DNA of 64,000 nucleotides from Buddleja alternifolia (taxonomy: Eukaryota; Streptophyta; Magnoliopsida; Lamiales; Scrophulariaceae): contig CM033404.1 in assembly GCA_019426215.1 (NCBI GenBank), forward strand, positions 3,658,001 to 3,722,000. The letters are read 5' to 3'. Numbering within the stretch: the first letter of the stretch is position 1; each line of letters opens with the position of its first letter. The position numbers and the translations under genes are program-made. The notes under the pieces were generated by a model. It saw only the letters and a list, made by a program, of their open reading frames with translations. It was not told the origin of the DNA and searched no databases. This document shows positions 5,246-61,560 of the stretch, piece by piece.

Positions 5246-7715
5246 ATGAATTTTTTTTTGCTTGCCGTATTTTTTCACTCGGGCATTGAAATGAGTTCAT
5301 TTTTGTGCGGTTACAAATTTTATATGAAACTTTACAATTTATATGTTCAAGTCGAAATTTAAAAATGAACGAAAAAGGGAGAAAAATGAGGCAGAAACAT
5401 AGACAAAATCATTATTTTCTTTAAAAAATTACTCTAATGTTTCCTTTTTACTTGTCGTATTTCTTCATCAAAATGAGTTCATTCTTGTGCGATTACAAAG
5501 TTTATATGAAACTCTACAATTTATGTGCTCAAGTCGAAACCCAAAAATAAACGAAAAAGGGAGAAAAATGAACCGAAAACAAGGAAAAAAATTATTATTT
5601 TCTTAAAAAAATTGCTCTAAAGCTGCTTTTTTGCTTGCCATATTTCTTTACCTGGTCATCGAAATGAGTCAATTCTTATGCGGTTACAAAGTTTGTATGA
5701 AAGTCTAAAATTTATATGTTCAAGTCGAAACCCAAAAATACACAAAAAAGGGAGAAAAATGAGCCGGAAACAAGGAAAAAAATAATTATTTTCTTAAAAA
5801 AATTGCTCTAATGCAAGGTCTTAAATATCGGTTTTGGAGTTGATATCGGTATAGTAAATTTACGGAAATTTTGATGGAAATTTCGGGGATATTCAAAATT
5901 TCGGTTTTGATTTTAAAGAAATCATGGAAATTTATAAAAATATTTGGAAATTTGCAATAAAATTTTGGGTAACTTTAATTATCATTCTTATGCATCTTTT
6001 ACATCAATAATATTCTATATATAATATATGGATAATGAATTTGTTAAATAATATCATTAAAAACTGTTGCGAGAAATATGAGATAAATATAATTTGATAA
6101 TAAGACAATAATCAAATCTCATAGAAACTTCATTAAAATAAAATTACCAAAATTTAAGGAAAAATTACTACTCAATACCACATTGAGTTTTTAGGAGGAT
6201 CGAAATCGCTATCACTAGTATCTGTCCTACCTCTACTTCATATTGCAAGTGAAAATTATTAGTTACATGTTGACAATATTCCGCCCATGACATGGAATGT
6301 TGGTAGTACTCCATATAATGATGATGATGATATCCTTCTGGTGTTGAATCTTGAAGAACCCCAATGGATACAACATACTCGACAGAAGTAGTAACATAAA
6401 CCTGTGACAAAGGATATGAGTAGGGTTGGTGTGGCATTGTATCCACTGAGTATCCACAATGTGTCCAAGGTGGACACATATTATATGAATTCAATCCATA
6501 TTATGTGTATAAATATAATTTTCTAATTATATGATATTTAAAAAAATTAAAAATATATATAAAAAAAATTTCGGTCGAAATTTCATTTTCGGTAAATATT
6601 TCGGGAAATATCGAGTTTCGGCCAAAATTTCGATGGATATTTGACAAAAATATTTTAAATTTAGGGAAATTTCGGGTTTCGGTCGAATTTCGGAAAATAT
6701 TTTGCAAAATTGGATCGAAGGTTCGATTTCGCTTCGGAACCCCCCGAAATCCGAAATTTCGACCGAAATTTCGATGTTTCGGTCGAAATTTTAGACCATG
6801 CTCTAATGCTGCTTTTTAGCTTGTCGTATTCCTTTACCTGAGCATCGTAATGAATCCATTCTTGTGAGGTTACAAAGTTTATATAAAATTCTACAATTTA
6901 TATGTTCTACTCCCAAAAATGCAGGAAAAAGGGAGAAAAATGAGCAGGAAACAAGAAAAAAAATCATTATTTTCTTAAAAAAATTGCTCTAATGCTGCTT
7001 TTTTGCTTGCCGTATTCTTTTACCCGGACATCGAAATGAGTCCAATTTTTTATGGTTATAAAGTTTATATAAAAGTTTACAAATTATATGTTCGGGTCGA
7101 AATTCAAAAATGCACAAAAATGGAGAAAAATGAGCCGGAAACAAGGAAAAAATTATTTTCTTAAAAAAATTGCTCTAATGCTATTTTTTTGTTTGTCGTA
7201 TTCCTTCACCCATGCATCAAAATGAGTCCATTCTTATGCGGTCACAAAGTTCATATGAAAGTCTACAATTTATTTGTTCAAGTCGAAACCCAAAAATACA
7301 CGAAAAAGGAAAAAAAATGAGTCGGAAGCAAGAAAAAAAATCATTATTTTTTTTAAAAAAAATTTCTCTAATACTGCTTTTTTGCTTGCTGTATTCCTTT
7401 ATCCGGGTATCAAAATGAGTCTATTTTTGTGTGGTTACAAAGTTTATATGAAAGTCTACAAATTATATGTTCGGGTTGCAATCCAAAATGCAATGAAAAG
7501 GGAGAAAAATGAGTCGGAAATAAGAAAAAAATCATTATTTTCTTAATTTAATTGCTCTAATGCTGCTTTTTTGCTTGTCGTTTTCCTTTACTCGGACATC
7601 AAAATGAGTCCATTCTTGTGCGGTCACAAAGTTTATATGAAAATCTACAATTTATGTGTTCAAGTCAAAATAAAAAAATGCACGAAAAGGGGAAAAAAAA
7701 TGAGCCGGGAGCAAG
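5246..7715. repeat. Subterminal ~190 bp repeats, direct orientation (left arm of MULE 'a')
   Basis: About eight head-to-tail monomers, interrupted by the nested MITE 5815-6799. Conserved blocks: GCTTGCCGTATT, CATCGAAATGAGTCCATTCT, GTTACAAAGTTTATATGAAA, CAAGTCGAAACCC, AAAGGGAGAAAAATGAGC and AAAAAATTGCTCTAATGC. The same blocks occur in the MULEs at 30991-39590 and 49992-61740. Confidence 0.9.
5815..6799. mobile_element. MULE-type element with TTTCGG-rich ends, 985 bp
   Basis: Ends are AAGGTCTTAAATATCGG and TTCGGTCGAAATTTTAGACCAT, flanked by a perfect 10 bp duplication GCTCTAATGC (5805-5814 and 6800-6809). The ends are rich in GAAATTTCGG motifs. The centre holds a minus-strand 108-codon frame (6168-6494) rich in His, Tyr, Ser and Pro. 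It could be a captured exon fragment, but I do not recognise it. Confidence 0.8.
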
Positions 7716-8690
7716 CATGGACTTTCATATAAACTTTGTTTAAGAAAATAATAATTTTTTTTCTTATTTCCGGCTCATTTTTCTCCCTTTTTCGTTTATT
7801 TTTGGATTTTGATTTGAAAACATAAATTGTAGATTTTCATATAAACTTTGTAATCATACAAGAATGGACTCATTTCGATGCCTGGGTTATGAAATTAGGC
7901 AAGCAAAAAAGCAGCATTAGAGCAATTTTTAAGAAAATAATGATTTTTTCTTTGTTTCCGGCTCATTTTTCTCCTTTTTTCCTGCATTTTTAGGTTTTGG
8001 CTTGAATATATAATTTGTAGACTTTCATATAAACTTTGTAACTGCACAAAAATGGACTCATTTTGATACCCGGGGCAAAGGAATACAATAATCGAAAAAG
8101 CAGCATTAGAGCAATTTTTTGAAGAAAATAATGATTTTTCTCCCTTGTTTCCAGCTCATTTTTCTCCCTTTTTCGTGCATTTTTGGGTTTCGACCCAAAC
8201 TTATAATTTGTAGACTTTCATATAAACTTTGTAATCACACAAAAATGCACTTATTTCGATGCCTGGGTAAAGGAATACGACAAGCAAAAAAACAACATTA
8301 AAATAATTTTTTTAAGAAAATAATGATTTTTTCATTCTTTTCGGCTCATTTTTTCCCTTTTTCATACATTTTTGGGTTTTAATTTGAACATATAAATTAT
8401 AGACTTTTATATAAACTTTGTAACTGCATAAGAGTGGACTCATTTTGATGTCCGGGTAAAGGAATACGGCAAGCTAAAAAGCAGCATTAGAACAATTAAT
8501 TTTTTAAAGAAAATAATAATTTTTTTTCATTGTTTTCGGCTCATTTTTCTCCCTTTTTCGTTCATTTTTGGGTTTCGATTTAAACACATAAATTGAAGAG
8601 TTTCATATAAACTTTGTAACCGCACATGAATAGACTCATTTCGATACTCGAGTGAAGGAATACGACAAGCAAATAAAAAGTAATTTATAT
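7716..8690. repeat. Subterminal ~190 bp repeats, inverted orientation (right arm of MULE 'a')
   Basis: About five monomers in reverse orientation (CTCCCTTTTTCGTGCATTTT, CATATAAACTTTGTAA, GACTCATTTCGATGCC, AATACGACAAGCAAAAAA). The orientation flips at about 7715-7735, where partial monomers meet, giving the element an overall foldback architecture. Confidence 0.9.
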
Positions 8691-8936
8691 TATCACGGTC
8701 AAACGACCGTGATAACAATTAAAAAAATATTTATTAAAGTGAGACGCTATAGGCTATAGTGTCTCACTTTAATTTTATATATATAAAAAATTATATTGTG
8801 AGATTCTATAGGCTATAGCATCTCTAAGGTAAGACACTATAGCATATAGCGTTTTGTGCTATTTTCTGATATATCCAAAATTTTGTAATATTATCTTATT
8901 TTTTATTTAGTTTTGTATTAATTATTTAAATTTCCC

Positions 8937-9650
8937 GTAGTATTGACCAAGAAGGGGGTATGAATGAAATATTGTTAAGTTTGCTCTCACAGGAGGAGAA
9001 GTGCTCTGGCATTATCAACAGCCTTTTCCGTGATGTAGACAATGTAATTTGATTAGCCGGGCCCCACAAAAGTTTAACTGATTCTCTTTCCTTTGGCTTC
9101 CTTATACATGTAAGTATCAGTTCCTTGAATTTATGCTTTACTAATGAGGAGTATTGACCAAGTAGGGGTATGAATGGAATATTGTTAAGTTTGCTCTGGC
9201 AGGAGGAGAAGTGCTCTGGCATTATCAACAGCCTTTTTTGTGATGTAGACAATGTGTTTTTTAGCCGGGCCCAACAAAAGTTTAACTGATTCTCTTTCCT
9301 TTGGCTTCCTTATATATGTAAGTATTAGTTCCTTGATTTATGCTTTACTAAGGAGCAGTATTAACCAATGAGGGATATGAATAGAATATTGTTAAGTTTG
9401 CTCTGGCAGGAGGAGAAGTGCTCTGGCATTATTATCTGGCGCTTTTTCCGTGATGTAGACAATGTAGTTCGATTAGCCGGTCCCACAAAAGTTTAACTAA
9501 TTCTCTTTTTGTTGGCTTCTTTATGCACATAAGTATTAATTTCTTGATTTATGTTTTACTAATGAGGAGTATTGACCAATGAGGGGTATGAATGAAATAT
9601 TGTTAAGTTTGCTCTGATAAGAGGAGAAGTGCTCTGACATTATCAGCAAC
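8937..9650. repeat. ~210 bp tandem satellite, right part
   Basis: Continues the array of 3917-5000; GAAATATTG-type landmarks lie at about 8965, 9175, 9382 and 9593 (spacing 207-211 bp). Unit 2 has no array at the equivalent site (near 29858). Confidence 0.9.
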
Positions 9651-11136
9651 CTTATATTATATTCTCAAAGACTTCACGTTAAACATTATTGTCAGACACT
9701 TTTTTGTGCTGTCTTTTGTTTTTTTTAAAAAAGAAAATTCTCAATATTAAGTGCATCTGGATTAGCTTTTTTGATGCTTAATTATTTTGTATAGTTGGGA
9801 TTGGTCGAGATAACCATGTTGGAGTAATTATTTGAAGAAAAATGCTTCTTGCATAAAATTGATTACTAGAAAATATTATGAGTTATTTTATACTCCATTA
9901 ATAATTTCTTGCATTTTTGTTCTATACAATAATATGATCGATTTTGCTAGTAGACTGCGTGAATTGAACTTGAATTAGATTAAATTGGGTTTATATTGGA
10001 TTTTCAAGACCGACATATTGTTTAGTCGATTTCCCATTAAATAAACCCGTCGTAACACAAAATGATTGAAATTGAACTCTAAAATATATACTTACTAGCA
10101 ATATATAAAACTATTGATTGCATTGTTTCAACCACTTTAGCTCAAACGATTAACCTTGAATGGTTTTTTTAGAGGAAAGTGGTCATTTTATTTAATTAAA
10201 TAGAAAGTTTGCAACGTCAAGAATAATACAACTTAGACTGTTTCTAACGATATAGTAATAACAATGGAAGCACCAAATATCAAGTTTCTTCAAAATAACA
10301 AATCGTAAGAACTAACAAACGAGTACAAGAAAACTCTTGTGTAAAAGGCCACACTCTTATTCAAAGAGAGACGAAACTCCCATTTGAGAGAGAAAAGTAA
10401 AGTCCTATACGAGAGAGAAAACAAAATACTAAGCAAAATATCTAAAAAATTATATAAAATCTAATGTATCGTCCGTCTTCATGTCAGATTCATCTCTGTA
10501 TCGTTAAACCTTCTCCATCCCATCAAATTTGCAATTGGGATACACAGTTTGAAGGAGGGTGTTCCAACCCAGCCCGCCGACGATGGTGACATCAATCAGG
10601 GACGGATCCAGGAATGACTAATTGTGGGGGCTGGATTACCTTTTTTTTAATAGTTATACGTATATACTTAAACTTATTTTAGTTTTAATAAGTAAAATAA
10701 AAATTATCAAGTTTAAGAAATAATAAAATTAATTTTTAATAAACTTACAGTAGTTTCAAAGTATATAAGTCATTTTCAAAAAAGTTTATTGATGTTGTAC
10801 ACGATGTTATTTGATATCATTATATTCACTGTAATAGATTTCATATTCCATCTTATTTCTTAGTCTATTTTTCACTAATTTCATGGATGAAAGGAACCTT
10901 TCAATCGTTGCAGTAGTAACTTGAACATATTGTGTGGTGGATATTTTTTGGGAATTAGACTCCCGAAGGCACCAAGTATCACCTCATTAAAAGGTGACTG
11001 GGAGGCTGATGAAACTTTGTTGATTACGTCGTCGGCCCCTCATATATAATTTATAATCTTATCAATAGAATTACGTCGGTCGTCATTGTCTGTTAGATTC
11101 ACAAAAGTGTGAAAATATTTGATATTTTGTATTTCA
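9651..11136. other. Intergenic duplicated backbone upstream of the ankyrin/PGG gene
   Basis: The segment 9650-9960 aligns with unit 2 at 39970-40220. Near 10596 a hAT-like end (CAGGGACGGATCCAGG) is visible but I found no partner end. No gene is supported. Regulatory elements of the ankyrin gene would be expected here but none can be singled out. Confidence 0.45.
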
Positions 11137-14805: not shown

Positions 14806-15287
14806 TTGAGGGAAATAAGAGTAATATTTTATTTTATTTGCTATAATCATGTGTCATATTTTGCTGAAAAGCAAAATATATATTGAAATTATTAAATTCC
14901 AAAATAATAAAGATTTAATTTGGTAAATTAACACAATAAAAATATCAAAAACATTAGTTTTAGAATTAAACGCTTCATTATTCTAAAATTTTGTGCTTAA
15001 AATGTATAATTGAACAAGACTTATCAACAAATATTACAAATTTTGAAAATAATTTTTGAGATATTTCAATTTTCTAAGCATTTTAATGACAAATGTGCGG
15101 AATGGCCGCGACCATTCCTCAATAATGCAATGGAACTAGAACGGTCGCCTCCGCGACCATCGCCGCGACCGTTCCGGCGAACCATGGACTCAACAACCAA
15201 AAATTAAAATAAAGTAAAAGAACATAATTCATTCTGGAAGTCTTTTAGCCTTGTGGATCTTTTAATAGCTCTTTTGGGTCTTTGCAG

Positions 15288-15529
15288 ATCTGGCATTACA
15301 ATTAGCACTAGATAAGACGTTAGTGTCTACTCCATATGCCATGCTAGCTTTTGCATTCATATCTAATGTCTTAAGCATCTTGTCGGTGCAGATGTGGCGT
15401 CAGCTATACTGAACATGAATGGATCTCTTGCTAAAATAAGTAATGAAGAAGGAGCAACACTTCATCATTTAGTTCAACCTGTTTTCGTTTACACCGGAAA
15501 GACGAAACTTTCGAATGTTCTTTTTCCAG
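15288..15529 (+). pseudogene. Copy A exon 3: ankyrin segment
   Basis: It starts after TTTGCAG (15281-15287) with ATCTGGC, completing the codon TAT-GAT left by exon 2 (...MYDLALQLALDK). It ends at CCAG/GTTTGC. Compared with exon 3 of copy B (34 bp between AATGTC and GCAG; 27 bp here), copy A has a net loss of 7 nt, which shifts the frame before DVASAILNMNGSLAK. Confidence 0.7.
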
Positions 15530-16238
15530 GTTTGCTGATGTCCCCCGTTATAAGATTTTGGTCTGAGCCGAGATCGTATCACGGTATCAATTATTTTAGT
15601 ATGATTTTGGTTTTAGAAATTCTACACTGTTAAAAATCATACCGGGCTTTATATATTATATTATCCATGTTGTATATAAGTGATTCTACTAAAGAAACTT
15701 CTAGAACGTATAGGGACAAATACACTACGAATCAAATTTATTGCACAAGGATTTGGAAGATTTTATAAAATTATGAATTTAGGAATTTGTGAATAAAATT
15801 GAACACTCGATTTTCTTTTACTGATTCCAATTGAATTTATATTTTTAACTAATCCTAGTGAATTAGTATTTTTTGTTTTGATTTCAACTATAATAATAAG
15901 AGTTTTATTTTTTTATTTGATTTTTATTTTTCGTCGCATTTATTTTAATGCAAATAGCTTTCTTATCTTTTAGTATATCGCTTTAAATTTCACTAACTCA
16001 ATCTTTTTGAAGTCTGTCAATATTAAATAAATATATTTATTGAGATATTCATGTGACTTATAATTAGTTTTTTTGACATAATTTTTCCTTTCAATTCTTT
16101 TATAATATGTCAAATCTAAAGGTCTCTTATGTGATAAAGTCGTAATTAATGAGTATATGATAAATCTCACTAGACTATTGTGCATAAAAGTCGTGCACCT
16201 GTCCCCAATGGAAGAATGAGTGATATTTTCCCTTGTAT
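15530..16238. other. Intron 3 of copy A, duplicated sequence
   Basis: Aligns with copy B at 44973-45640 and 46480-46820. The site TCCTAGTGAATTAG near 15853-15866 is the unoccupied counterpart of the hAT insertion at 45650-46479. Confidence 0.75.
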
Positions 16239-17841
16239 TGTTAGAGTATATATGCCCTTGAATGCCATAAAGAGGATAGATTTATAGGGCATAGACATTG
16301 TAACTAAACTATGGTTTTTCTATTAATATAAGGAGTTGATTGTTGTTTTCTTATAGGCATTTATAAGGTGTGAATAAACAACGTAAAATCCTTGATGACA
16401 AGGCGAACCTTCTACCTCCTATGGGATAGGAGGAAAGACACTAGAATGGTTTGACCCTTAACATCTAAAAGGGTTCGCAAGTCTAAGAAATATTGATTGG
16501 GCATCAATAGTGAATAAAGACTTGTATGATGTAAGTTTCGACAGAGAAAGTGTCAGTCGTACACTATGGAAATGGTAGTGGGAACTTATATCATAGACGT
16601 GTCAGTTGGACTGATATGTTCGAACACGGCTCGCATCAGTTCATCACATGGGTATTCACTCATTGACAGTCAATGATGAAACTGATAAGTAGTGATAGGT
16701 ACGTGTAAACCTCTGACCTGAGAAATCGAGTTGAAGATGTACTTGTGACATCAAGTCTGTCATTAGAGTAGTTAGATTCAAATCACCTGTTGGTGGAATT
16801 GACCTCGAAGTGCGACTTGATGGGCAAGTAGCATTGTTAACTGATTTGCAATATGGAATTTATTCTCTCATAAGTGAATGAGTAAAATATCCTATGCAAT
16901 CATGAATAAGTGAGGATGAAAGTCTTTGGCTAAAGCATTTAAATACCTCGACTTATTATGAGCTTAGGCATATGGTCAAGTTATATGAGTTTGACTTTAA
17001 ACCATGACTCTTACTTGACTGGGATATAAGAATAAAAGGTTTATACACGTACGGTATTCACGGCGTAAAGGTTTGGAATGATCATATTCATTCGTTCTCA
17101 ATTGGGTTACGGTGTGAGCCACGAGACTGGCTAGGTGTCATTCACACACCTTTGGATTCCTCCTAATTGCCTTTTGAGACGAACCTAAAGAGTTGCGCTT
17201 AAAGGAAGTGCAAAAGGAAAAACATGGAAAAAAGATTTGAGAGAAATTCACGGTATTGGATGCCGTAATTAATTAATTAATTATTGGATAATTTAATTAA
17301 TTAATTAAATTAATGAGTTAATTAATTTCTTGGAGAAATTGAATTATAAATTAATTAGGAATTGAATTAATTGGATTATCAATTTATTTATTGGATAAAT
17401 AAATTATCCGATTAATTAATTAGCAAGCAAGACGAAAGCCCGAAGGCTTCCGAGCCCACTAAGGGGCGGCCAAATAGATGCCCAAGTAGGGCTCTTGCAT
17501 TCTAGGGTTATTGTTTCATAATGATATAAATATATCACAAGGTGAAAAATAACACAAGGTAACTTACATAACTTTCTCTCCAAGAAAAAGTCTCCCACCT
17601 CTCTCTCTCTCTCTAGCCGTCTTTGACAAGGAAGAAAGGAGGAGTTTTTCGTTTTTGATTCCGGCGTGACGAATTAGAGACGTTGGCAAATTCGGCATTA
17701 GAGAAAAGGATCACGTTCAGAAATCAACATACGCGAGAACGTTAGTTTTCTATACACAATTAAACACGAGGATTAGAGATGATTCGGACTTTGAGAATTA
17801 AATTTACTTTCTGCTGCATTTTATTCGTATAATTCCCAACA
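16239..17841 (+). mobile_element. Solo LTR, 1603 bp, related to the copia element at 50200-59780
   Basis: It begins TGTTAGAG and ends CCCAACA, with a perfect 5 bp duplication TGTAT at 16234-16238 and 17842-17846. In reverse complement the LTR at 50200-51940 shares blocks with it: ATGCCATA..AGAGGATAGA, TATAGGGCATA, CTTGATGGGCAAGT and the TTAATTAATTAA-rich middle. No coding region is attached, as expected after LTR-LTR recombination. Confidence 0.85.
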
Positions 17842-17846
17842 TGTAT

Positions 17847-18190
17847 ATCATGGCCTTACCACTAGAAAGGCTAACAAAAGGATATCCAGAAAGCTTGCGG
17901 AACTGGAAGAACGAAGCCCCTCGACTTTTAATGCCCACAGATCTACTTGCGGAGCTGAGCGTCCTCTAATCCCTGGGATAAAGCTTTTCCTCTGCAGGGG
18001 CCTTGTGCAGTAAACCCCCTACGGGAGGTCGTCCGTCGAAAGACTGCATTTTCGGTCAACTCGGGGACACCCAATTCCTCTACAACATCGAATTCCGAAC
18101 TTGTGGTCACTCATTCCTCGCTTGTTCCAATTTCAAAGAGCTTCAAATCTGATTTGACCCTTCTGCCTTCTAGGCTAGAACCCTCAAAGT
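17847..18190. other. Unrecognised, possibly ex-coding patch next to the solo LTR
   Basis: This stretch is less AT-rich than its surroundings. It opens a 37-codon frame at 17850 (MALPLERLTKGYPESLRNWK), then stops. It has no counterpart in unit 2. I do not recognise the family. Confidence 0.35.
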
Positions 18191-18193
18191 TGG

Positions 18194-18400
18194 GTGGACA
18201 TAATACTATGTGGATAAATCTACAAAAACATACTACAAAACCGTACCAAACAATACCGAAACTGCATGATACCAGTTGCAATGGTACCGGTTTCAAAAAG
18301 TTTGATTTGGGTTTTAACTATCTAAATACCATAATTATTGGTATGGTATAATTTTAGTGAAGAAACTGCAAAAACTAAACTGGGTGCATGCCTACCCCCT
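18194..18400. mobile_element. hAT fragment (right half) related to 45650-46479
   Basis: GGACATAATACTATGTGGAT and the following ~170 bp, with poly-purine/ACCG motifs, align with 46305-46478 and end near GTGCATGCCTACCCC. The left half is missing. Confidence 0.6.
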
Positions 18401-18625
18401 TCTTTATGAAGCATTAAAACTTCAGATATTTTTTTCTACATTTTCTACTGTTAATAATACCTATAAACGGTAGAAAATGCATCATAAAATGTTAGTTACA
18501 ACTTACACGAGTAGTCCTAAACATTAATTTTGGAAAACTAGATTAAGGTGCTTAATTATAAAATAAAAACAAAAGCATGTCCTAATTAATGTCTCCGCTG
18601 ATTTGCCTTAGCGAGAAGACACAGG

Positions 18626-19260
18626 TTGGAGCGTGAATCACAGGAAAGAGGAGTTCGGTCATTGGCTGAGAAGCTTTGGGCTGGGATTCAAACATTGGGA
18701 CAAGATAAGGTGACTGAGCTTATCGAGAAACCTTTCTCAATACTTCACGAAGCTGCCAAACAAGGGAATGTTGAGCTTATAGATATGATTGCTAGAAGCG
18801 ATCCTCATCTTTTATTGAGAGTTGACAAAAACCATCACACTATATTACATACAGCAATTTTATATCGACAAGAAAGAGTATTTACTCTCATTCTCCAGAT
18901 AGGTCATCTGAAAGGGATGTTAGCGACCTCTGTGGATAAGGATGGTAACAACATTCTGCATTTAGCTGGGAAATTGGCACCTCCGAGAAGGTTGAAGGTC
19001 GTATCCGGGGCAGCTTTTCAAATGGAAAGAGAATTATTGTGGTTTGCGGTGAGAACTGAACAGAGGAATCCCCCACCCCCTCTTCTGTTGATGTCAATCG
19101 TTTTCTTTTTCTCGACCAGACATACGTATTTATTGATGCAGGAAGTGAAGAGGGTTGTACCACTTTCGTATAGCAAGATGAAAAATAAGGACGGGCAGAA
19201 ACCAAGAGAAGTGTTTTCCAAGGAACACCAGCCTATGTTGAAAGATGGCGAAAAGTGGAT
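18626..19260 (+). pseudogene. Copy A exon 4 and first part of exon 5: ankyrin repeats up to the PGG domain
   Basis: The frame from about 18626 carries FSILHEAAKQGNVELIDMI, HTILHTAILYRQERVF and DKDGNNILHLAGKLAPPRRL, which are ankyrin units, followed by the linker typical of PGG proteins. An intron of 93 bp (19049-19141, GTGAGA...TGCAG) joins WFA to EVKRVVPLSY without a frame change. Exon 5 is cut at 19260 (TGGAT) by the copia element. The 5' end of exon 4 differs from copy B, where acceptor AAAAG/GTTTACG is intact at 46820, so the true start here is uncertain. Confidence 0.75.
19049..19141 (+). other. Intron 4 of copy A
   Basis: GTGAGAAC...GATGCAG lies between complete codons. Copy B has the homologous 100 bp intron at 47274-47373. 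Confidence 0.75.
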
Positions 19261-19466
19261 TATTAGAAGATAATTAATTTCCATGTATATATAAGTAGTT
19301 AGTTTCCATAATTAGTGGGTCAGCTTTTATTTGTTCCTTTATTAGTGTTAGTATAAATAGCTTTCCTTTGTTATATTCTTGTAATTAGAACACCTCTTCA
19401 TACGCAGTACCATAATGAGAAAACAGAGCTTTCCTTTTCTCTCTCTTTGCTCTCTCAATCTTGACA
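19261..19466 (+). repeat. 5' LTR of copia A
   Basis: TATTAGAAG...CTTGACA. It starts TA rather than the usual TG. A TATA-like box TATAAATA at 19352-19359 is a candidate promoter. Confidence 0.95.
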
Positions 19467-19479
19467 TGGCACCAGAGCC
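19467..19479 (+). other. Primer-binding site of copia A (initiator tRNA-Met type)
   Basis: TGGCACCAGAGCC directly follows the 5' LTR. It is a two-base variant of the common TGGTATCAGAGCC site, a copy of which sits at 57988-58000 in copia D. Confidence 0.85.
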
Positions 19480-44240: not shown

Positions 44241-44280
<40 letters not shown>

Positions 44281-47273: not shown

Positions 47274-47373
47274 GTGAGAACTGAACAGAGGAATATTTCC
47301 CCACCCCCTCTTCTGTTGATGTCAATGTATCGTTTTGTTTTTCTTGACCAGATATACGTATTTATTAATGCAG

Positions 47374-47986: not shown

Positions 47987-49357
47987 TATAATGATTAAGT
48001 GTGATGTGACGTGATATTTTTTTTTTGTAACAATTTTTTTTATTTTTGTGAAAAATTGATATGGATGTGTTTTGTTTTTGTAAGAATATTTAATATATTT
48101 AAGTTAAACTCATCGATTAAGACATTAAAAAATATACAAAGTGGATTTTATTTTGTAACCTAAATCATTTCAAATAAAGATATGTGATTATTTTGATAAT
48201 TATATCAAGATATTGGTTGATAAATTACTTTTAATTATTGAGTGAAATATCTAATTATGAATAGTAAAAATTTTGATTTTCTCTGAAAAATGTCAAATAA
48301 TCCATTTTTCAAATAAATTTGAGAGAAATGTCAAATAATTCATTTTTAAAAAATATTTGAGGTTTTTTTCTACAAAATTGTGTGTAGTATTTTTTTTGTG
48401 ATATTTTTTAGAGATGTCAAACAAATACATTTTTAATGAAAAAAAATTCTGAGAAATTGAGAAATGAGAAACAACGTCCCATCGGTCTAATGTTTTCACT
48501 CTCTAGGAAAGAGAGAGAGAGAGGATGTAGTGTTCACTGGATTGAAACTTACTAATTTGGATCATATCTCGTCTGTTCAGTATTGCAACCCAACTTGAAA
48601 CTTTGGTACTGTTGCGAATTTTTTCACTGAAACTAAGGTGCTATAAGTTTTCGTTTCTAATTTGCCCAACGCTTGGAAAAGATCACGTTGTGTACTTAGA
48701 ATCTACTACTCCATGTTAAATGCAAGTAGTTCCTAACAAAAGTTCTGTGCTTTTTTGAAACCCCCCATCCCCCAAAAAAAAAACAATAAATAATAATCTT
48801 GTCATTGGTAAGACCGTTCACCTAATATGTAGATTACCACTTGCCTTTGCATTATATATATTTTGTCAAGTTTGGATTCTCTAGTGTAAAAAGATATTTC
48901 ATCTCGTATTTCACATCATGCTCAGAGGATGGCCGGGGCTGGTAGCCACCCTCCATTCTAGAAAGAAAAAAAAAAGTTAGGTATATTTTCAAAATTTACA
49001 AAATTGCCCCACTAAAATGTAAAATTTGCACTTTGCATCCTGTAAGAATTTTCTGGCTCTGCCACCGATCATGTGCATAATTTTTTTCCAAAATGTAAAG
49101 TTGACTTGGAGTAGATTTTCTATTTTGCACTCGTCTTGGTCAACCGTATTTCACTAATCAAAGAGGTGAATGTAATTTTTCAAAATATAAAGGAGGCAAA
49201 ATAATTTGTTTCTAACTAGAGGAGGTGATTATAAAGTTTATTTATAAGAGGTGGTATAATCAAACAAATGTTTATTAATTTTGTTTTTATGATTTTTTTT
49301 CAAAAATGAGGGTACAATTGTTAATTTATAATTTTTGTCACGTTTGACTAACTTTTG
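47987..49357. other. 3' flank of copy B
   Basis: The first ~600 bp is AT-rich and special to unit 2. From about 48600 on it aligns with unit 1 (26660-27319). No gene is seen. Confidence 0.6.
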
Positions 49358-49982: not shown

Positions 49983-50064
49983 GAATTATATGGATTTTTT
50001 AAATAAATAATATACTTTTTAATATTAATTATTTAAATAATACAAAAAAAAATCATATCTAGCT

Positions 50065-50118
50065 GGGTACGCCAATAATAATGGCGTACCCACCTGAGGC
50101 GCCATTATCAATGGCATA
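50065..50118. repeat. Terminal palindromes of MULE 'c'
   Basis: GGGTACGCCA (50065-50074) pairs with TGGCGTACCC (50082-50091). The next block, GGCGCCATTATCAATGG, resembles the palindromes of MULE 'b' (GGCGCCATTTCAAATGG). Partners occur at 61570-61670. Confidence 0.9.
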
Positions 50119-50199
50119 CTCACATTTTTATTTTTTTTTAATTTTGCTGCAATTTTTTTTAATTATTTATGTGACCAGGTACGCCATTGTGAATGGTGT

Positions 50200-51940
50200 T
50201 GTTGAGTTTCGTTCGAAAAAGCATAAAGGCAGCGGAAGGAATTTCAAAAATTAAAACGAAAACCCAATTGGTACTCTAATTCGCATAATTGAATCTAAAA
50301 GCGTATAACGAGTAAAACTTATTTGTTAATATGAATATGATGATGGAGAAAAACTTCTTCTTCTCCAAATTCGAAATATTGAAGCTTTCAAATCATCAAT
50401 CCTTTGATTTGATTTTTCAAACTTGAACTTGATCCGAACAACGAAAATACGTCGTCTCTAAATCGTCACGCACGGATCAACAAACGAAAAATCCCCTTTA
50501 TTCTTTCTCTATGGTCGACGGCTAGGTATAGAGGAGGGGAGGAATATTTTTCTTTCTTTTGAGAGTTATGAGAGTTGTGTATTCTCTTTTTTTGTTCTAA
50601 GTCAAAGAGTCCTTATATACCTCATGACTTATTGAACAAGTCAAAACAAAAGAGCCCTAATATGTGGCCTCTCAATGATGCCACTTTGAGGCCTCATAGG
50701 CGTCCAATTGGGCTCCTTATTTAGCCCCGGGATTTATTTTGTTTAATTAATTTCTTGTTTCAATTAATAATTTATTATATTCAATAAATTAATTAATTAA
50801 TATTTCACAAGGAAATTAATTAATAATTAATCTTATCATTATAATTAATTATTTCATCTAATGAATAATGAATTATTTAATTTATCCAATAAATTAAAAC
50901 TGCCAGAAGAAATAATAGAAATTCTTTTTTCTTCATTTTTCTTTGTCAATCCTTTAACACGACTCTTTAGGTTCGTTTCATTTGGCAATGAGAGGAAACC
51001 AAAGGAAGTGGGTAACACCTAGCCAGTCACGTGGCCCACTTCGTAACCCAAACGAAAATGAATGATAGGATCATTCCGAAACCTTCCAATCGTAAATACC
51101 GTATATGTATAAACCCTTTGTTCACGTTTCCCGGTCAAGTGAGAGTCATGGTTATGTCAAACTCACTGGACTTGACCATATGTATAAATCATAATAAATA
51201 CGAGATCATTGAGATCGATTTAGTGCCAAGCACAATCGTCTCGTTTGCTTTGGCCAAAGACTTTGATCTCTATTTATCTATAATTACATAGGGTACATAC
51301 TCATTCACTTATGAGAGAACAAATCTCATATTAGATATTTGCTAAGATTACCACTTGCCCATCAAGTCCGCATTTCGAGGTTGACCCCACCAAAGGGTGA
51401 ATTGGGTCTAACTACTCTAGTGAAAGACTTGACGTCACAAGTGCATCTTCAGCCTGATACTTCAGGTCAAAGGTTCACATATACCTATTACGCATAATCA
51501 GTTCCGTCATTGACAGTCACAGAGTGAAAACCCATGTGACAAAACCGATGCGAGTCGTGTTCGAACATATCAGTTCCACTGACGTGTCTACAATCTTAAT
51601 CTCCTATCATCCCATGATACCAGACAGACACTCCCATGTCGGAGCTAAGATTGTACAAGTATTCGAAGTCTTTATTTGTCCATTAAAGACTTCATATTAC
51701 TTGCGAACTTATTTTAGTAATCAAGATCGATCTCTCTAGTGCCAATCTTCCTATCTCATAGGAACTAGAGGGATCGCACTGAAAACACGGACAAAACATT
51801 TTACACAACTTATAGATGCAGATAAGAATTAAGTGAAATCTCAATAATGCATTTTATTTAAGAAGAGTTTAAGTTCAATACAAGATATATATGCCCTATA
51901 CATTCTATCCTCTATGGCATCTGAGGGCATAATCCTAACA
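50200..51940 (-). repeat. 3' LTR of copia D
   Basis: TGTTGAG...CCTAACA in plus orientation; 1741 bp. Confidence 0.95.
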
Positions 51941-51952
51941 ATCTCCCACTTA
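51941..51952 (-). other. Polypurine tract of copia D
   Basis: On the minus strand TAAGTGGGAGAT directly precedes the 3' LTR. Confidence 0.75.
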
Positions 51953-51965
51953 CACTCAATGCCAC

Positions 51966-54900
51966 TCATCTAATACCTATCATTTCCAGGTGTTGGTCCA
52001 AAACAGCCCGAGGTAGTGGTTTGGTGAACGGGTTAGCTATATTGTCAGCTGAGGCTATTTTCTGCACTGCTATCTCTCCTCTGCCAACGATCTCCGTGAT
52101 GATGTGAAATCTTCTCTCAATATGTTTGGACTTGTTATGAGACCTCAGTTCCTTGGCTTGCGCTATCGCTCCATTGTTATCACAATAAAGTGGCAAGGGT
52201 AGCTGAGCACTAGGGACCGTTCCAAGTTCTCCAAGAAACTTCCTCATCCAAACAGATTCTTTCGTTGCCTCTGAGGCTGCTACATACTCTGCTTCAGTGG
52301 TGGAATCAGCGGTTATGCTTTGCTTGGAGCTCTTCCTCCAAGACACCGCTCCACGATTGAGAGTAAAAACAAACCCTGAAGTGGATTTTCGGTCATCAAC
52401 ATCATACTGAAAGTTTGAATCAGAATAACCTTCCATCTTCAGGTCTCCACCTCCATAGATGATAATCATATCCTTAGTTCGTTTCAGATACTTTAGGATA
52501 TTCTTCACAGCTTTCCAATGTTCCTTTCCCGGGTTTGCCTAAAATCGACTCACCACGCTCACAACATAGGCAATGTCCGGTCTAGTACACAGCATTGCAT
52601 ACATCAGGCTACCAAATGCAGAAGCATAGGGTACATTACTCATCTCTTGTCTATCTTCTTCACTTTGAGGATACATAGACTTGGATAAGTGTACTCCATG
52701 CCTCATGGGAAGAAACCATTTCTTAGAGTTGTCCATCCTAAACCTCTTTAGGACCTTTTCTAAGTAAAGGGCTTGAGAGAGGCCTATCATTCTATTCGTT
52801 CTATCCCTGTAGATACGAATTCCTACATGTATGTGGCTTCTCCCAAGTCTTTCATGGAAAACGTACTCGAAAGCCATTTCTTGACAGTGGTGAGCATTCC
52901 TACGTCATTTCCTATAAGTAGAATGTCATCCACATATAGTACTAAGAACGAGAGTTTACTCCCACTAATCTTCTTGTAGACACATGGTTCATCTTCGTTC
53001 TTGATGAAGCCATATCCCTTAACTTCTTCATCAAAACGGAGATTCCAGCTTCTAGATGCTTGCTTGAAACTGAAAATGGACCTCCTCGGACTCGGACACA
53101 AAACCCTTTGGCTGTTCCATATAGATATCCTCCTCGAGGAATCCATTTAGAAAGGCCGTTTTGACATCCATTTGTCATATCTCATAATTTAAGTATGCAG
53201 CTATGGATAACAGAATTCGTATGGACTTTATCATAGCCACAGGCAAAAAGGTTTCTTGATAGTCAATTCCTTCTCTTTGACTATACTCTTTCGCTACGAG
53301 CCTGGCTTTAAAGGTGTCAACCTTGCCATCGCTACCTATCTTTCTTTTGTAGATCCACTTATATCTTATAGGTTTTATACCTTCAGGACGATCTACCAAA
53401 GTCCAGACATGGTTCGATTGCATAGAGTCCATTTCTGTTTCCATGGCTTCTCGCCATCTTGAAGCGTCGACATCCACCATCGCTTGATCATAGGTACAAG
53501 GATCATCTTCATGACCTTCTTGTACTACAGTGTGAAGCTCTCGCTCCCCCTGTAGTAGATACCCATACCTCTCAGGTTCATGCGGTGTTCTACCAGATCT
53601 ACATGGTGATTGTGCTACTATGGGTTCAGGCCTCGGTTCTTGAACAGATGTATTTGAGGGGGTCTCATTTTGTTCTTCTAGAACAATTTTCCTACCTTTG
53701 CCCCTTTTCAAGATGAACTCATCCTCAAGGAAGTGAGCTTGTAGGGCCACGATGATTCTTTGATCATCATGCAGGTAAAAAAAGAATCCCATGGAATCTT
53801 CAGGATAACCAATGAAACGTCCCATTAGGGATCTTGCCTCCAATTTCTCCACTTTAGTCTTCTTGACATAAGTGGGGCATCCCCAAATCTTAATATGATT
53901 AAGACTCGGTTTCCTATTATTCCACATCTCATGCGGAGATTTAGGAATGGATTTGGAGGAACATCTGTTCAAAACATGAGCAGCGGTAAAGAGCGCGTAT
54001 CCCCACAACGAAATGGGTAAATCAGTGTAACTAAGCATGGAACGAACCATGTCCAACAGTGTTCGATTCCTTCCATTCAGTTGAGAAGTTGCTAGTGGTG
54101 TTAGTTATAATATTATTCCTTGTTGTCTTAGGAATTCATCAAACTCGGCACTCATATATTCTCCTCCACAATCCGATCATAGAGTTTTTATATTTTGCCC
54201 AGTTTGATTTTCTACTAAGGCCTTGAACTCTTTGAATCTTTCAAAGGATTCAGACTTTTGCTTCATCAGATACACTAGACCAAATCTTGAATGGTCGTCA
54301 GTGAAAGTGATGAAGTAGTAGAAACCTCCACGAGCCATTTCTCCAAATGGTCCGCAGACGTCGGTATGCACTAATCCTAAGACTTGCGTAGCCCTTTCAA
54401 AAGTCCCTGTGAAGGGGGATCTAGCCATCTTGCCTAACAGACATGATTCACATGTAGGAATAGGGTCCGACCCTAGTGAGCTTAAAAGCCCATCTTTTTC
54501 CATTTTGTGGATCTTGTGATCTCCGGCATGGCCTAGTCTAAGATGTCACTTGAGTCTTAAGTTAGTTTCTTGCCTACCACGTTTATGTGTTACAACATTA
54601 ACATCAGATGAATTACGGATATTTAAATAATACAAACCATTAACTAAACATGCATTGCCAACTAATTTATTTCCATAATAAATGTCGCAATTTAATTTAG
54701 AAAAATGGAATGTATATCCAATCTTAACTAAGATAGGAATAGATACAATGTTCTTAAGCCCCTTGGGTAAAACCAAAACATTATCTAAAAACAGTAAATG
54801 TCCAGAATTCAAATAAAGAGAAGTAGATCTGATCCTAGTAGTTGCGACGTTTTTCCTACTGCCTACTTTGATCATCACTTCTTCTCAGCCCAGCTTTCTA

Positions 54901-55847
54901 CTTCTCTGTAGATCCTGATCCAAACAACAAACATGGGCACTAGCCCCTGAGTCCAGAATCCATGAAGTAGAAAATACGGTCATAAAACAGTTAGTTTCAA
55001 AAATAAATAGTTCCATACCTTGTGCGCCTTTGCCTAATTTGGGACAGTTTCTCTTCCAGTGGCCAAGCTCACCGCACTCGAGACATCTATCCATTTTCTT
55101 AAGTTCTTTGCTCTTGTAAAACCCCTGAGCCTTTCCCTTACCCTTCTTGGTACCCCTTTGAGCTTCAAGCTCGCTAAACTTTTTTTTGTTCTTCTCCTTC
55201 TTAGACTTTTTGGGTCCAGAAAAGATGACCAAGGCAGTTTCCTTTCCCTTTGGTTTCATTTGAGATTATGCAGTAACCAACTTGTTCATTAGCCCAGCTA
55301 AATTGCACTCTATCTCATTGCAGTTAAAGTTAACCACAAATTGGGAGAAGGAATCAGGAAGAGACTGCAAGATTAAGTCAGTTTGAAGGATGGCATTCAT
55401 GGTGAATTCGAGAGCTTCCAATTTCTCGATCCTCGAAATCATTTTGAGGACATGATCACCAACCTTCTCACTTTCTTTCATCTTGGCTCCGAAGAGCTCT
55501 TTCGATATCTCATATCGTGCAGTTCGACTATGCTCTCCATAGATCTCTACCAGGTGCGCTAGGATAGCTCCTGCAGTGGTCATCTTATCATGTGACCTTT
55601 GAAGATCATTAGTCATAGATCCCACCATGTATCCTCTCACCCAGAGGTCGTCCTTAACCCATTTTTCATGGGCTTGGACCTCTTCCTCGTTCGCACGTGT
55701 TCTAGCAGGAGCCGCCAGGATATCAGCCTCCAAGACGTATCCCAGTGATTCCATATTGAGGACAATCCTCAAATTTCTAAGTCAGTCCACATAATTGGGT
55801 CCAGTCAGAGTATTCTTTTCGAGTAGAATTGAAAGTGGGTTTGTCAT
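51966..55847 (-). pseudogene. gag-pol of copia D, riddled with stop codons
   Basis: The frame starts at ATG 55847. Order: gag (to 55266); a Lys-rich stretch and CCHC knuckle CLECGELGHWKRNC (near 55085); protease LDSGASAHV (near 54953); integrase (HLRLGHAG near 54540, ESCLLG, HTDVCGPFGE, TDDHSRFG); reverse transcriptase (VDRPEGIKPIRYKWIYKRK near 53400, YVDDILL near 52936); RNase H (YCDNNGAIAQAKELRSHNKS, ANPFTKPLP). The same reading frame persists from gag to RNase H except for a shifted stretch around 53146-52823. Stops at 55784, 55268, 54887, 54548, 54179, 54107, 53177 and 52541 all fit C-to-T or G-to-A changes of Trp, Arg or Gln codons. Confidence 0.9.
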
Positions 55848-57987
55848 ATTTGAGAGAGATAAACGAGAAAATGACTGCAGAAATAAACCAGATTTATTAG
55901 ATTACTTTGTTTTGACTTAACCAAGAAAAATTAAGGACTTAAAATTTATCTTGGCTCCCACTGCATTTTTCGAATCCCACACTCCCATGTGAAAATCGGG
56001 AATCATCATTGACATCGATTCCACAGTAGGTATTGAGGTCTTCAATTAATTAAATAGGTTGAAACCTAACCGGTTTCTGACCCATTAATTATTTGAAGTG
56101 ATATCTAATATCAATTTATCCAATAAATGTTTCAATACGTTTCCCCATAGTTCACCAAACCGCAACCCATTCGATTTATAGGTTCGTGAATTACCCGAGT
56201 TTATCCCACTAACTCCTATAATCTAGCATTTGAATTTTACCTTGCAACCGAACAGGTTTCTGGGGTGAAATATATTTCGATTAAGGCATTTGCATGCACT
56301 TTATAAAATTTCAAATTATTTCTAAATGTATAACCCCCATAACTGGGAAGCATTACACATTTATAGTAATTCTAATTTTAGAAAGCTCAGTAGAGGGTGA
56401 GGATGTCAAACATCCTTTTTTAACTTGGTATAATTTATTTGGAAGAATTTAATTCGTCAAAAGATTTTGGTCTCACTTTGCACATTATTCAATTTATATA
56501 GCGCTTTATTCTATATTGATCATGCATAAAAATACTACTAATAATCATGCCTTTCAATATAAATAAACATAGAATTTAAATAAATGAATAAATAAATTCA
56601 TCACTTGATCATGGACTTTTATTAGAGGACCCGAGCAAATGGCCATCACAAAAAGCATATATTAAACCTATTAAACATTCATGGGCCTTTTGACTTTATC
56701 AACTTTGAACTATTTTATCTCGATTCCTAAAACAACTCATACATTATTTCTAAGAACATAATAAATAGCTTCAAATTTGATAACCCATAAAATTAAAGGT
56801 AAAACATAAAATCCTAAGTCCATGATTAGTGTTTTAATCACATGAGACATGCTCGCATCAATTAATACATGCTCGCAATATTAAATCACTTATGTTGATT
56901 ATTAAAATTTTAGTCCAACTAAAAAAAACATCCTTTATAAAATTTCTTATGATTTCACATATTCACTATTTCAATTAAAATCACTCTAGTCCAACTAGAT
57001 GACTTAGATGTACGAAATTAAGAATTAAGTGCATCTACCTTTAATTAAAATAATATGAACACATAAAATATGAAATTCTATATTTTATTTTATTATGATC
57101 TAAAGCCATCAAAAATTGGAAATACTTTTATTTGATCAAATAATTAATTATCAATCTCTAAGAAAAATAATTTATATTCCTTATTCAAAATGAAGTAATT
57201 TTCAAGTCGAGGAAAAAATAATAATATTTAATCTATAAATCAATTATTAATCTCCAAGAAAAATAATTAACTAGTTCTAATTAAATATTGTATTCCAATT
57301 AACCTCATTGGGCTCGATTTCATCAAACCCAAGTCACCATTTTTTTGGTCTACTTGGATTCAATTTAATTGGGCTCAAAATAATTAATTAGAACAACATT
57401 CACGTTTATTAATTTCTTATTGGGGTAAATTTAATTTAAATCCAAATCACCAATCTAATTGGCCGAATTAGATTTAATTAGATTAAGTCCAAACTAATTA
57501 ACAAATTGAAATTGGATAATTCTCAATTGGGCTTGATTTAAATTATTCGGGTCATCATCCTTTTGATCCACCCAATTAATTAAAATCATCCAAAATTCAA
57601 AAAATAATTTCGGCCCATACATAGCCCATTTTACGACCCGAATCCATGACCCGGATCAACGAATTAGGTATCCAAACCCACGACCCGTCGGGCCACGGTC
57701 ACAACCCTACGGGCCGTGACTGGGTAGGGCCGGGCCGTTCGCGCTAAACAGCGCGAGGGCTGTTGCGTGCATTTTTCTCGGGGCTTTCGAGCTCCGTTTT
57801 TTCTCGGTATTTTTCGATTTTCAATATCATCAAAAATGCCCAGATTTACAATAACTAAAAAAAAAAAAAAACTAGGCAAAAAAACATAAAACGCAGATTT
57901 AAGAAAAACATACAAACATGCTTCAAAAACACATAACATGCAATTCTCAAATCACGTAAACAAGATCAAATATGCAAATCAGAGATT
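55848..57987 (-). other. Untranslated leader of copia D
   Basis: About 2.1 kb between primer-binding site and gag, AT-rich without a supported gene. A 91-codon frame at 57664-57939 is not recognised. Confidence 0.6.
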
Positions 57988-58000
57988 GGCTCTGATACCA
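57988..58000 (-). other. Primer-binding site of copia D (initiator tRNA-Met type)
   Basis: On the minus strand TGGTATCAGAGCC lies one base after the 5' LTR; this is the standard plant copia/gypsy site. Confidence 0.95.
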
Positions 58001-58001
58001 C

Positions 58002-59780
58002 TGTTGGGTTTCGTTCAAAAAAGCATAAACGCGGTGGAAGGGATTTCAAAAATTTAAACAAAAATCCAATTGGTACTCTAATTCGCATAATTGAATCTAA
58101 AAGCGTATAACGAATAAAATTTACTCGTTAATATGAATATGATGATGGAGAAAAACTTCTTCTTCTCCAAACTCGAAATATTGAAGCTTCCAAATCTTCA
58201 ATCCTTTGATTTGATTCTTCAAACTTGAACTTGATCTGAACAACAAAAATACATCGTCTCTAAATCGTCACGCACGGATCAACAAACGAAAAATCCCCTT
58301 TCTTCTTTCTCTATGGTCGACGGCTAGGTATAGAGGAGGGGAGGAATATTTTTCTTTATTTTGAGAGTTATGAGAGTTGTGTATTCTCCTTTCTTATTCT
58401 AAGTCAAAGAGTCCTTATATACCTCATGACTTATTGAGCAAGTCAAAACAAAAGAGCCCTAATATGTGACCTCTCAAAGACGCCACTTTGAGGCCTCATA
58501 GGCGTCCAATTGGACTCCTTATTTAGCCCCGGGATTTGTTTTGTTTAATTAATTTTTTGTTTCAATTAATAATTTATTATATTCAATAAATAAATTAATT
58601 AATTAAATAACCAAATTAATTAAATAAATTAATTCATTAATATATTTCACAAGAAAATTAATTAATAATTAATCTTATCATTATAATTAATTATTTCATC
58701 TAATGAATAATGAATTATTTAATTTATCCAATAAATTAAAACTACCAGAAGAAATAATAGAAATTCCTTTTTCTTCATTTTTCTTTGTTAATCCTTTAGC
58801 GTGACTCTTTAGGTTCGTTTCGTTTGGCAATGAGAGGAAACCAAAGGAAGTAGGTAACACCTAGCCAGTCACGTGACCCACTTCGTAACCTAAACGAAAA
58901 CGAATGATAGGATCATTCCGAAACCTTCCAATCGTAAATACCGTATATGTATAAACCCTTTGTTCAAGTTCCCCGAGCAAGTGAGAGTCATGGTTATGTC
59001 AAACTCATTGGACTTGACCATATGTATAAATCATAATAAATACGAGATCATTGAGATCGATTTAGTGCCAAGCACAATCGTCTCGTTTGCTTTGGCAAAA
59101 GATTTTGATCTCTATTTATCTATAATTACATAGGGTACATACTCATTCACTTATGAGAGAACAAATCACATATTAGATATCTGCTAAGATTACCACTTGC
59201 CCATCAAGTCCGTATTTCAAGGTTGACCCCACCAAAGGGTGAATTAGGTCTAACTACTCTAGTGAAAGACTTGAGGTCACAAGTGCATCTTCAGCCTGAT
59301 ATTTCAGGTCAAAGGTCCACATATACCTATTACGCATAATCAGTTCCGTCATTGACAGTCACAGAGTGAAAATTCATGTGACAAAACCGATGCGAGTCGT
59401 GTTCGAACATATCAGTTCCATTGACGTGTCTACAATCTTAATCTCCTATCATCCCATGATACCAGACAGGCACTCCCATGTCAGAGCTAAAATTGTACAA
59501 GTATTCGAAATCTTTATTTGTCCATTAAAGATTTCATATTACTTGCGAACTTATTTTAGTAATCAAGATCGATCTCTCTAGTGCTAATCTTCCTATCCCA
59601 TAGGAAGTAGAGGGATCTCACTGAAAACATGGACAAAACGTTTTATACAACTTATAGATGTAGATAAGAATTAAGTGAAAACACAATAATGCCTTTTATT
59701 TAAGAAGAGCTTAAGTTCAATACAAGATATATGCCCTATACATTCTATCCTCTATGGCATCTGAGGGCATAATCCTAACA
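58002..59780 (-). repeat. 5' LTR of copia D
   Basis: 1779 bp; contains a ~38 bp AT-rich segment (near 58590-58640) that is absent from the 3' LTR. Confidence 0.95.
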
Positions 59781-59799
59781 GGTGTACCCAGTCAGAATT

Positions 59800-61560
59800 T
59801 AAAAAAAAAATCATCATTTTCGGGATGATTTTTCAATATTTTCTGTACATTTTCGAGTTTCGACTTCAATATAAAAAATGTAGATTGACTCACAAAGTTT
59901 GTAACAGTACGAGAATTGATTCATTTTGATATCCAGGTAAAAAAATACAACATATTAAAAAAGACACACATATACGTATTTAAAAAAAATAATATTTTTC
60001 GTCATCTTCGGGATGATTTTTCGATATTTTGTGTACATTTTCGAGCTTTGACTTCAACATAAAAAATGTAGACTGACTCACAAAGTTTGTAACGGTGCAA
60101 CAATTGATTCATTTCGATATTTGGGTGAAAAAATACAATATGTTAAAATATATACACATACACGAATTTTTCGAAAATAATACATATTTTTTCATCATCT
60201 TTGGGATGATGTTTCGATGTTTTCTGCACATTTTTGGGCTTCGACTTCAACACAAAAAATGTAGATTGACTCACAAAGTTTGTAGCGGTGCGAGAATGGA
60301 TTCATTTCGATATCCGGGTGAAAAAATACATTAAATTGTTTTCATGATTAAAAATAAAAATACTGTAAAAAACAGTATCAATCTTCAATATGATTTACCG
60401 CAAGATTTAGACTCTTCGATATCCGGGTGAAAAAAATATAACATGTTAAAAACAGTCTTTATGAAATTTAATGTATTTTTTTCACCCGGATATCGAAATG
60501 AATCCGCACCATTACAAACTTTGTGAGTTAATCTACATTTTTTACGTTGAAGTCGAAGCCCGAAAATATACGGAAAACGTCGAAACATTATCCCATAGAT
60601 GACGAAAAAATATTTTTTTTCCGAAAAATTCGTGTATGTTTGTCTTTTTTGACATGTTGTATTTCTCACCCGGATATCGAAATGAATCAATGCTCATACC
60701 GTTACAAATTTTGTGAGTCAATCTACATTTTTTGTGTTGAAGTCAAAACTCGAAAATATACATAAAATGTCGAAAAGTCATCCCGAAGATTACGAAAAAA
60801 TATTTTTTTTTCAAAATATTCGTATATGTGTCTTTTTTAATATGTTGTATTTTTTCACCCGAATATCGAAATGAATCAATTCTTGCACCGTTACAAACTT
60901 TGTGAGTCATTCTTTATTTTTTGTGTTCAAGTCGAAGCTCACAAATGTATATAAAACGTCAAAAAAATATCCCAAAAATGACAAAAAAAATATTTTTTTT
61001 TTTGAAAAATCCGTGTATGTGTATCTTTTTTAACATGCTGTATTTTTTCACCCGAATATCGAAATAAATCAATTCTTGCACTATTACAAACTTTGTGAGT
61101 CAATCTACAATTTTTGTGTTGAATTTGAATTCCGAAAATGTACATAAAATGTCAAAAAATCATCCCGAAAATGACAAAAAAATATTTTTTTTGAGAAAAA
61201 TCCGTGTATGTGTGTCTTTTTTAACATATTGTATTTTTTCACCCGAATATCTAAATGTATCAATTCTTGCACCGTTACAAACTTTGTGAGTCAATCTATA
61301 TTTTTAATGTTGAAGTCAAAGCCCGAAAATGTCGAAAAATCATCCCGAAAATGTCAAAAAAATATTTTTTGGGGGGAAAAATCCGTATATGTGTATCTTT
61401 TTTAACATGTTGTATTTTTTCACCCGAATATCGAAATGAATCAATTCTCATACCGTTACAAACTTTGTGAGTCAATCTACATTTTTTGTGTCGAAGTCGA
61501 AACCCGAAAATGTACAAAAAATATCGAAAAATCATTCCGAAAATGATGGGAAAAAAGCTT
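59800..61560. repeat. Subterminal ~190 bp repeats of MULE 'c'
   Basis: About three monomers in one orientation (near 59815, 60008, 60200), an inversion point around 60340-60480, then about six inverted monomers to 61560. Blocks: TCGGGATGATTTTTCGA, GACTCACAAAGTTTGTAACG, TTCATTTCGATATCCGGGTG, AATACAACATGTTAAAAAA. Confidence 0.9.

Follow-up and report, generated by a model that had tools for sequence, protein, structure and literature searches.

The plant mobile domain (PMD) is found in transposons and also in MAIN and MAIL1, two host factors that act in silencing. The PMD-encoding Mutator-like element (MULE) considered here, E2 (~30990-39590), lies with two gene-less companions, E1 (5001-8936) and E3 (49992-61740), in a 64,000-nucleotide stretch of Buddleja alternifolia chromosome 15 (hereafter the window), and all three carry tandem arrays of a ~190-bp monomer. 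The closest described systems are the Arabidopsis VANDAL elements, whose VANC proteins bind non-coding tandem repeats of their own element and lift silencing (PMC5735166, PMC10398659). As far as the available portions of those accounts go, the Buddleja elements resemble VANDALs in combining a MULE transposase, a second gene whose product is here predicted to adopt the VANC21 fold, and nearby non-coding tandem repeats. VANDALs have degenerate terminal inverted repeats (TIRs) and a 9-bp motif, whereas the Buddleja elements have a ~190-bp monomer and long inverted ends (over 200 bp in E1, and likewise long in E3, by self-comparison), a PMD in place of VANC, gene-less foldback members and an array common to two terminal families (PMC5735166, PMC10398659).

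Three further groups of MULEs invite comparison. In the accessible text of PMC5418596, MULEs encoding a PMD, as E2 does, are described from grasses and Amborella as fusions, and an anti-silencing role of the domain was proposed as speculation; the present case comes from Lamiales and differs in its separate open segments, its array and its fold match. The foldback MULEs FARE and MuTAnT (PMC4486113; FARE as cited there) share long modular inverted ends, 9-bp duplications and, as appears for E2, insertion at microsatellites, MuTAnT elements preferring TA microsatellites; the portion of that source at hand does not report an array common to terminal families, unlike the situation in Buddleja. Tandem-TIR MULEs, as outlined in the available part of PMC3310237, also bear repeated units at both ends, but they repeat whole TIRs, whereas the Buddleja unit lacks the tip: self-comparison at E 1e-8 aligned no monomer with a terminal region, and the repeated unit is therefore not the TIR.

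A single monomer family, represented by 25 monomers (13 in E1, three in E2 and nine in E3) and one fragment found with nhmmer, makes up the arrays at 5252-8679 (E1), 31294-31837 (E2) and 59812-61563 (E3). When a profile derived from one array is run against the other two, their monomers score 46-127 bits, compared with a maximum of 8.3 bits among 2000 dinucleotide-shuffled sequences for each profile, which upholds the claim of a preliminary description of the window that its three arrays derive from one monomer. Consensus identity is 70% for both E1/E2 and E1/E3 and 81-83% for E2/E3; mean monomer identity is 0.83 within E1, 0.85 within E3 and 0.75 within E2, compared with 0.74 for E2 against E3 and 0.64-0.65 for E1 against either of them. 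In the monomer tree, E1 (100/100) and E3 (100/99) each occupy one side of a branch and the three E2 monomers fall between them, on the E3 side under a midpoint root; a division into two groups (E1 versus E2 plus E3) accordingly depends on identity and on that root, the unrooted tree separating only E1 and E3. A degenerate monomer pattern gave no matches to viral contigs.

The three elements end in two terminal families, A (GGGAAAATTAAATAAATAATAC) in E1 and E3 and B (GGGTTTTTTATCAG) in E2. A profile of 17 genomic A termini scores 30.6/21.1 bits at the ends of E1 and 16.8/15.4 bits at those of E3 and finds no match in E2, and the best 12 of 2218 AT-rich windows against this profile are all E1 or E3 ends. 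Three separate terminal families, as first suggested, are therefore rejected, although E2 does differ from the other two. The target site duplications (TSDs) of 8-9 bp typical of MULEs flank E3, E1 and most of the two-tipped loci fetched from the genome; the independent 9-bp duplications noted earlier are confirmed for E3 (perfect) and E1 (one mismatch), and the flanks of E2, which has lost its left tip, showed none.

The repeat extends well beyond the window. A search of the 853.6-Mb assembly with an E1 stretch gave 1438 candidates, 40 of which were scored, and at least 222 matches; from about 39 clusters among the matches listed, 28 loci (L009-L036) were fetched, eight of them chosen from the remaining clusters for high match counts and all selected by likeness to E1 monomers. 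Every one contains 3-15 monomers, in plus-then-minus order in 20 loci, minus-then-plus in two, mixed in three and in a single direction in three; inverted arms of modular repeats, the hallmark of foldback elements, are present in E1, E3 and most of the 28. Terminus A was recognized, at up to 6 edits, on at least one side of 26 of the 28 (20/20 in L009-L028 and 6/8 in the others, a misplaced 6-edit match in L033 not being counted), with tip A on both sides in 12 of the 20 L009-L028 loci, one of them (L019, 6 edits) doubtful. The same pattern at up to 6 edits also occurs in 24/240 flank stretches, making L022 (5 edits), L024 (4) and L029 (4 and 5) less sure, whereas at no more than 3 edits it was found in 23/28 loci compared with 1/240 flank stretches. 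Where both tips were available (n = 14), nine loci had a duplication of 8-10 bp that was either perfect (five loci) or carried a single mismatch, compared with 2/182 swapped flank pairs and none perfect. The two remaining loci are L031, the sole terminus-B locus, and L033, a minus-then-plus locus whose left side, read by eye, has an E1-like palindrome region and an eroded A-like tip; within this E1-selected sample, the expected clustering of matches at MULE ends is thus seen as 26 A termini, one B terminus and one eroded end. A large population of Buddleja MULEs carries the ~190-bp repeat as a non-coding array in subterminal position.

Arrays and tips do not travel together. E1-type monomers are paired with tip A at most loci and with tip B in L031, whose left side reads GGGGGTTTTTATCAG and whose right tip was not found at the expected place, a site holding a TTTCGG sequence similar to an element nested in E1 (5815-6799). 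At no more than one edit, GGGTTTTTTATCAG occurs twice in the window and L009-L036 together, at E2 and L031, so that the definition of terminus B draws on two elements, in each of which a single tip is legible. The L031 monomer consensus is nevertheless 0.964 identical to those of classes P1 and P3 and 0.934 to that of P2, all A-tip classes. E3-type monomers pair with tip A in E3 and in the inner part of L015 (0.949 identical to each other), and E2-type monomers, closest to the E3 type, pair with tip B; if E2 and E3 are counted as a single clade, each of the two clades is seen with each of the two tips, making all four pairings. L015 itself is a composite foldback (L015:2756-5200) in which each arm has two E1-type and then four E3-type monomers in mirror order, with palindromes of its own type (GTTACGACAT). 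Among A classes P1-P3, monomer consensuses are 0.958-0.988 identical and terminal cores 0.762-0.812 (71-83% among A classes), although tip divergence is inflated by decay because each monomer consensus averages over many copies whereas few tips enter the comparison (23 for P1, six each for P2 and P3); the outer monomers of class P4 (L015, two tips) reach just 0.87-0.88 to other E1-type classes. By sequence comparison, the E1-type array has thus stayed nearly unchanged across differing cores, palindromes and two terminal families, showing that arrays and tips have recombined. The L031 array, the diverged A cores and the two-type L015 together indicate that the array behaves, and with high probability should be regarded anatomically, as an exchangeable subterminal module of MULEs. 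Movement of the repeat between terminal families, proposed initially from the three elements of the window, accordingly finds its support in L031 (96.4% identity to the main A class) and not in the outer pair, E1 and E3.

E2 is the only one of the three elements in which a MULE-type transposase was found (PF10551, E 1.9e-16; SWIM, 1.7e-7), and its previously reported transposase and PMD genes both stand. The transposase (34817-37534, minus strand) is spread over three open segments, which show a MULE domain, a SWIM domain and a DBD_Tnp_Mut-like domain, the last a weak match under the Pfam cut-off. The PMD gene (32001-34443, minus strand) matches the domain in segments 34443-33628 and 33208-32747, a further open segment (32663-32001) being assigned from position alone, and the three monomers (31294-31837, plus strand; nhmmer) lie at this PMD end only. 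The nearest relatives of both sets of segments in a protein search are from Sesamum, Paulownia and Primulina, all Lamiales. In Paulownia a PMD and a MULE transposase adjoin by locus tag (Pfo_005260, Pfo_005261), and single predicted proteins listing both domains occur in Erythranthe (P0162) and Centaurea (P0073).

The first PMD segment of E2 was modelled, and its predicted fold matches VANC21, giving the element a second gene product of putative VANC fold, as in VANDALs. Of the two domains expected of a VANC protein, DUF1985 scores E 0.037 in the window PMD segment, below the cut-off, and, when E values up to 1 are allowed, appears in 26/46 PMD proteins; the 16 families that this domain search lists do not include DUF287. 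A profile of the PMD alignment run against PDB sequences gave no match up to E 10. In the available text of literature naming both VANC and the plant mobile domain, no fold link was found; the accessible part of a meeting report mentions an unpublished VANC21 structure, and since no paper for the structure 9lnj was found, the fold link is not claimed to be unpublished.

The predicted fold favors recognition of the array by the PMD protein in an anti-silencing role. By analogy with VANC, E2-like coding elements would make a VANC-fold PMD protein that docks on the array in cis and coats it, holding silencing off and letting the transposase act. Foldbacks that have no genes but bear a matching array would profit in trans, and this benefit would favor monomer likeness across families while tips follow their own transposase. 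That the array may be such a docking platform for an element-encoded anti-silencing protein, open to use in trans, is the reading tentatively preferred here, with a probability of roughly 0.4. A wider proposal, held with more doubt, is that the PMD is a VANC-type DNA-binding fold which Lamiales MULEs use for anti-silencing on traded ~190-bp arrays, host MAIN and MAIL proteins belonging to the same superfamily turned to silencing. If true, the plant mobile domain would gain a fold to be tested against, one whose crystal structure has been solved in complex with DNA, VANC-type anti-silencing would reach beyond Arabidopsis VANDALs, and the target array would be tradable between transposon families, gene-less elements sharing the protection of a coding element. 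The monomer, palindromes and tips are ready-made test DNA that can be assayed separately.

Two observations weigh against docking on the array: the right end of E2, which was examined for it, carries no array, and conservation is near-uniform along the monomer, with no clearly constrained block. E1/E3 differences are evenly spread (windowed variance p 0.68; variance and maximum p 0.37-0.97 in a second analysis), p is 0.065-0.33 for E1/E2, and 22 element consensuses with L009 left out give maximum p 0.56-0.87 and variance p 0.41-0.56. E2/E3 differences are clustered (variance p 0.008-0.029), an effect of the A/T-rich head (0.47-0.86 without it), and one 20-column window around TTGACTCACAAAGTTT has uncorrected p values of 0.014 when the head is included and 0.033 when it is left out. 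The shared blocks singled out earlier as conserved footprints do not stand out from this background and are rejected.

Such uniformity is what would be expected if the array merely filled out the long ends of MULEs and had no protein reader, its likeness across families being due solely to gene conversion, unequal exchange and recent bursts. Consistent with this, monomers are star-like around one consensus, with mean identities of 0.835 within and 0.829 between elements (L015 left out of the between mean), and the best match lies in the same element for 45/196 monomers, compared with a shuffled mean of 8.4. The arms of E3 also fit copying of whole arms: matched in mirror order, the first left and last right monomers are 0.908 identical, the second pair 0.901 and the innermost 0.894, and whole arms were therefore probably copied. 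A purely passive module is accordingly possible, if not probable; alone, it leaves unexplained why arrays exceed terminal cores in likeness in P1-P3 and why the array sits beside the VANC-fold gene in the coding element.

Between terminal core and array, the ends, mostly mirrored as in foldbacks, carry palindromes, and the terminal core of many A elements closes with an anchor, CAGAAAATAGCA. The palindromes differ between classes (ATTCCGCTGTCGGGTACAGCGGAAT, ATTCCGCGCTCGGGCAGCGCGGAAT, GAGACGCTATAGGCTATAGCGTCTC, GTTACGACATGGGCTATGTCGTAAC) and are alike within an element, and across the spacers of L009-L036, E1, E2 and E3 both arms stay complementary despite the class differences; they look like the fastest-changing part of the ends. 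Such a pattern is expected of dimer sites changing specificity, and it may be on these palindromes, not on the array, that the PMD protein or transposase docks, the array serving as spacer or amplifier. Their density (10.7 per kb, 64 in 5974 bp) exceeds that of left flanks (4.35 per kb, 174 in 40000 bp), palindromes directly follow the anchor more strongly than in 95% of shuffles in 21/34 rows (two being the same end), and E2 and L031 share both a palindrome type (GAAGRCGCCAT) and tips. The sites are putative, however; hairpin-dependent slippage could maintain palindromes, 13 of the 34 rows fail the shuffle test and the anchor is not present in E3, which leaves palindrome docking rather unlikely. 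RCGCYATW, picked after inspection (22 in the window, 19 at the ends of E1, E2 and E3), was rejected as a family-wide motif, many other elements having other palindromes. A role for the monomers as additional sites at which transposase binds to raise transposition, as the available text of PMC3310237 proposes through better recognition of tandem-TIR MULEs, fits their subterminal position in the examined loci and their mirroring with the tips in most, but is improbable given that the same monomer occurs with two unrelated tips, presumably needing two transposases, and that no monomer resembles a tip at E 1e-8.

Both outer elements had been described as gene-less foldbacks with monomers running direct and then inverted; the foldback structure holds, and no stop-to-stop open reading frame (ORF) of at least 150 codons lies outside the nested retrotransposon, whereas the orders are opposite, eight minus then five plus in E1, and three plus, a fragment and six minus in E3 (E2 has three plus). 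E1 has type A ends (GGAAAATTTAAATAATTAATAC) and TSDs, read by eye, at 4992-5000 (GGAGTATTG) and 8937-8945 (GTAGTATTG). Its left palindromes, among them GTGAGACGCTATAGCCTATAGCGTCTCAC, separate the terminal core from the array at 5086-5246, and its right palindromes lie at 8688-8862. The left arm (minus strand) consists of three monomers at 5252-5792 and five at 6809-7717, and the right arm of five inverted monomers at 7745-8679 (plus strand). The left arm is split by a nested 985-bp element (5815-6799) with imperfect ends GGTCTTAAATATCGG and GGTCTAAAATTTCGG, flanked on each side by a 10-bp repeat, GCTCTAATGC. L009, on the same contig, has a flank identical to that of E1 and is probably a duplicate copy of it. 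A tandem array of ~209-bp period (3911-9653) surrounds E1.

E3, placed correctly by its array at first, proves to be a larger element: its left TIR (49992-50199, including palindromes at 50064-50199, GGGTACGCCAATAATAATGGCGTACCC) is separated from the array by a 9.6-kb long terminal repeat (LTR) retrotransposon (50200-59780) with copia-type domains, a GGTGT TSD and LTRs 93% identical. Its type A ends read GGATTTTTTAAATAAATAATAT, and the TSDs, read by eye at 49983-49991 and 61741-61749, are GAATTATAT. Three left-arm monomers (59812-60334, plus strand; nhmmer) and the fragment (60400-60452) precede six inverted right-arm monomers (60472-61563, minus strand), mirror-matched to the left arm.

E2, which lies on the minus strand and looks decayed, ends on the right in terminus B (GGGTTTTTTATCAGTTTGACCC) after palindromes at 39333-39578 (GAAGGCGCCATTTGAAATGGCGCCTTC and others), and about 20 bp of its left terminus are gone within a GT/TA microsatellite. 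The region 43900-44900 matches its right flank over 351 bp (79%) and its left flank over a 56-bp microsatellite-rich piece (79%), and the two matches join at a single point across a GT/TA microsatellite. The region may be a relative of the insertion site that lacks E2, and insertion of E2 at the microsatellite is therefore supported, short of proof. Elsewhere in the window, an ankyrin ORF (18602-19270) corresponds to BUALT_Bualt15G0037200 (100% identity over 99% of the length by protein comparison), and a duplicated region with ankyrin-repeat coding sequence occupies 15270-30050 and 43949-49356, parts of it recurring at 1516-3914.

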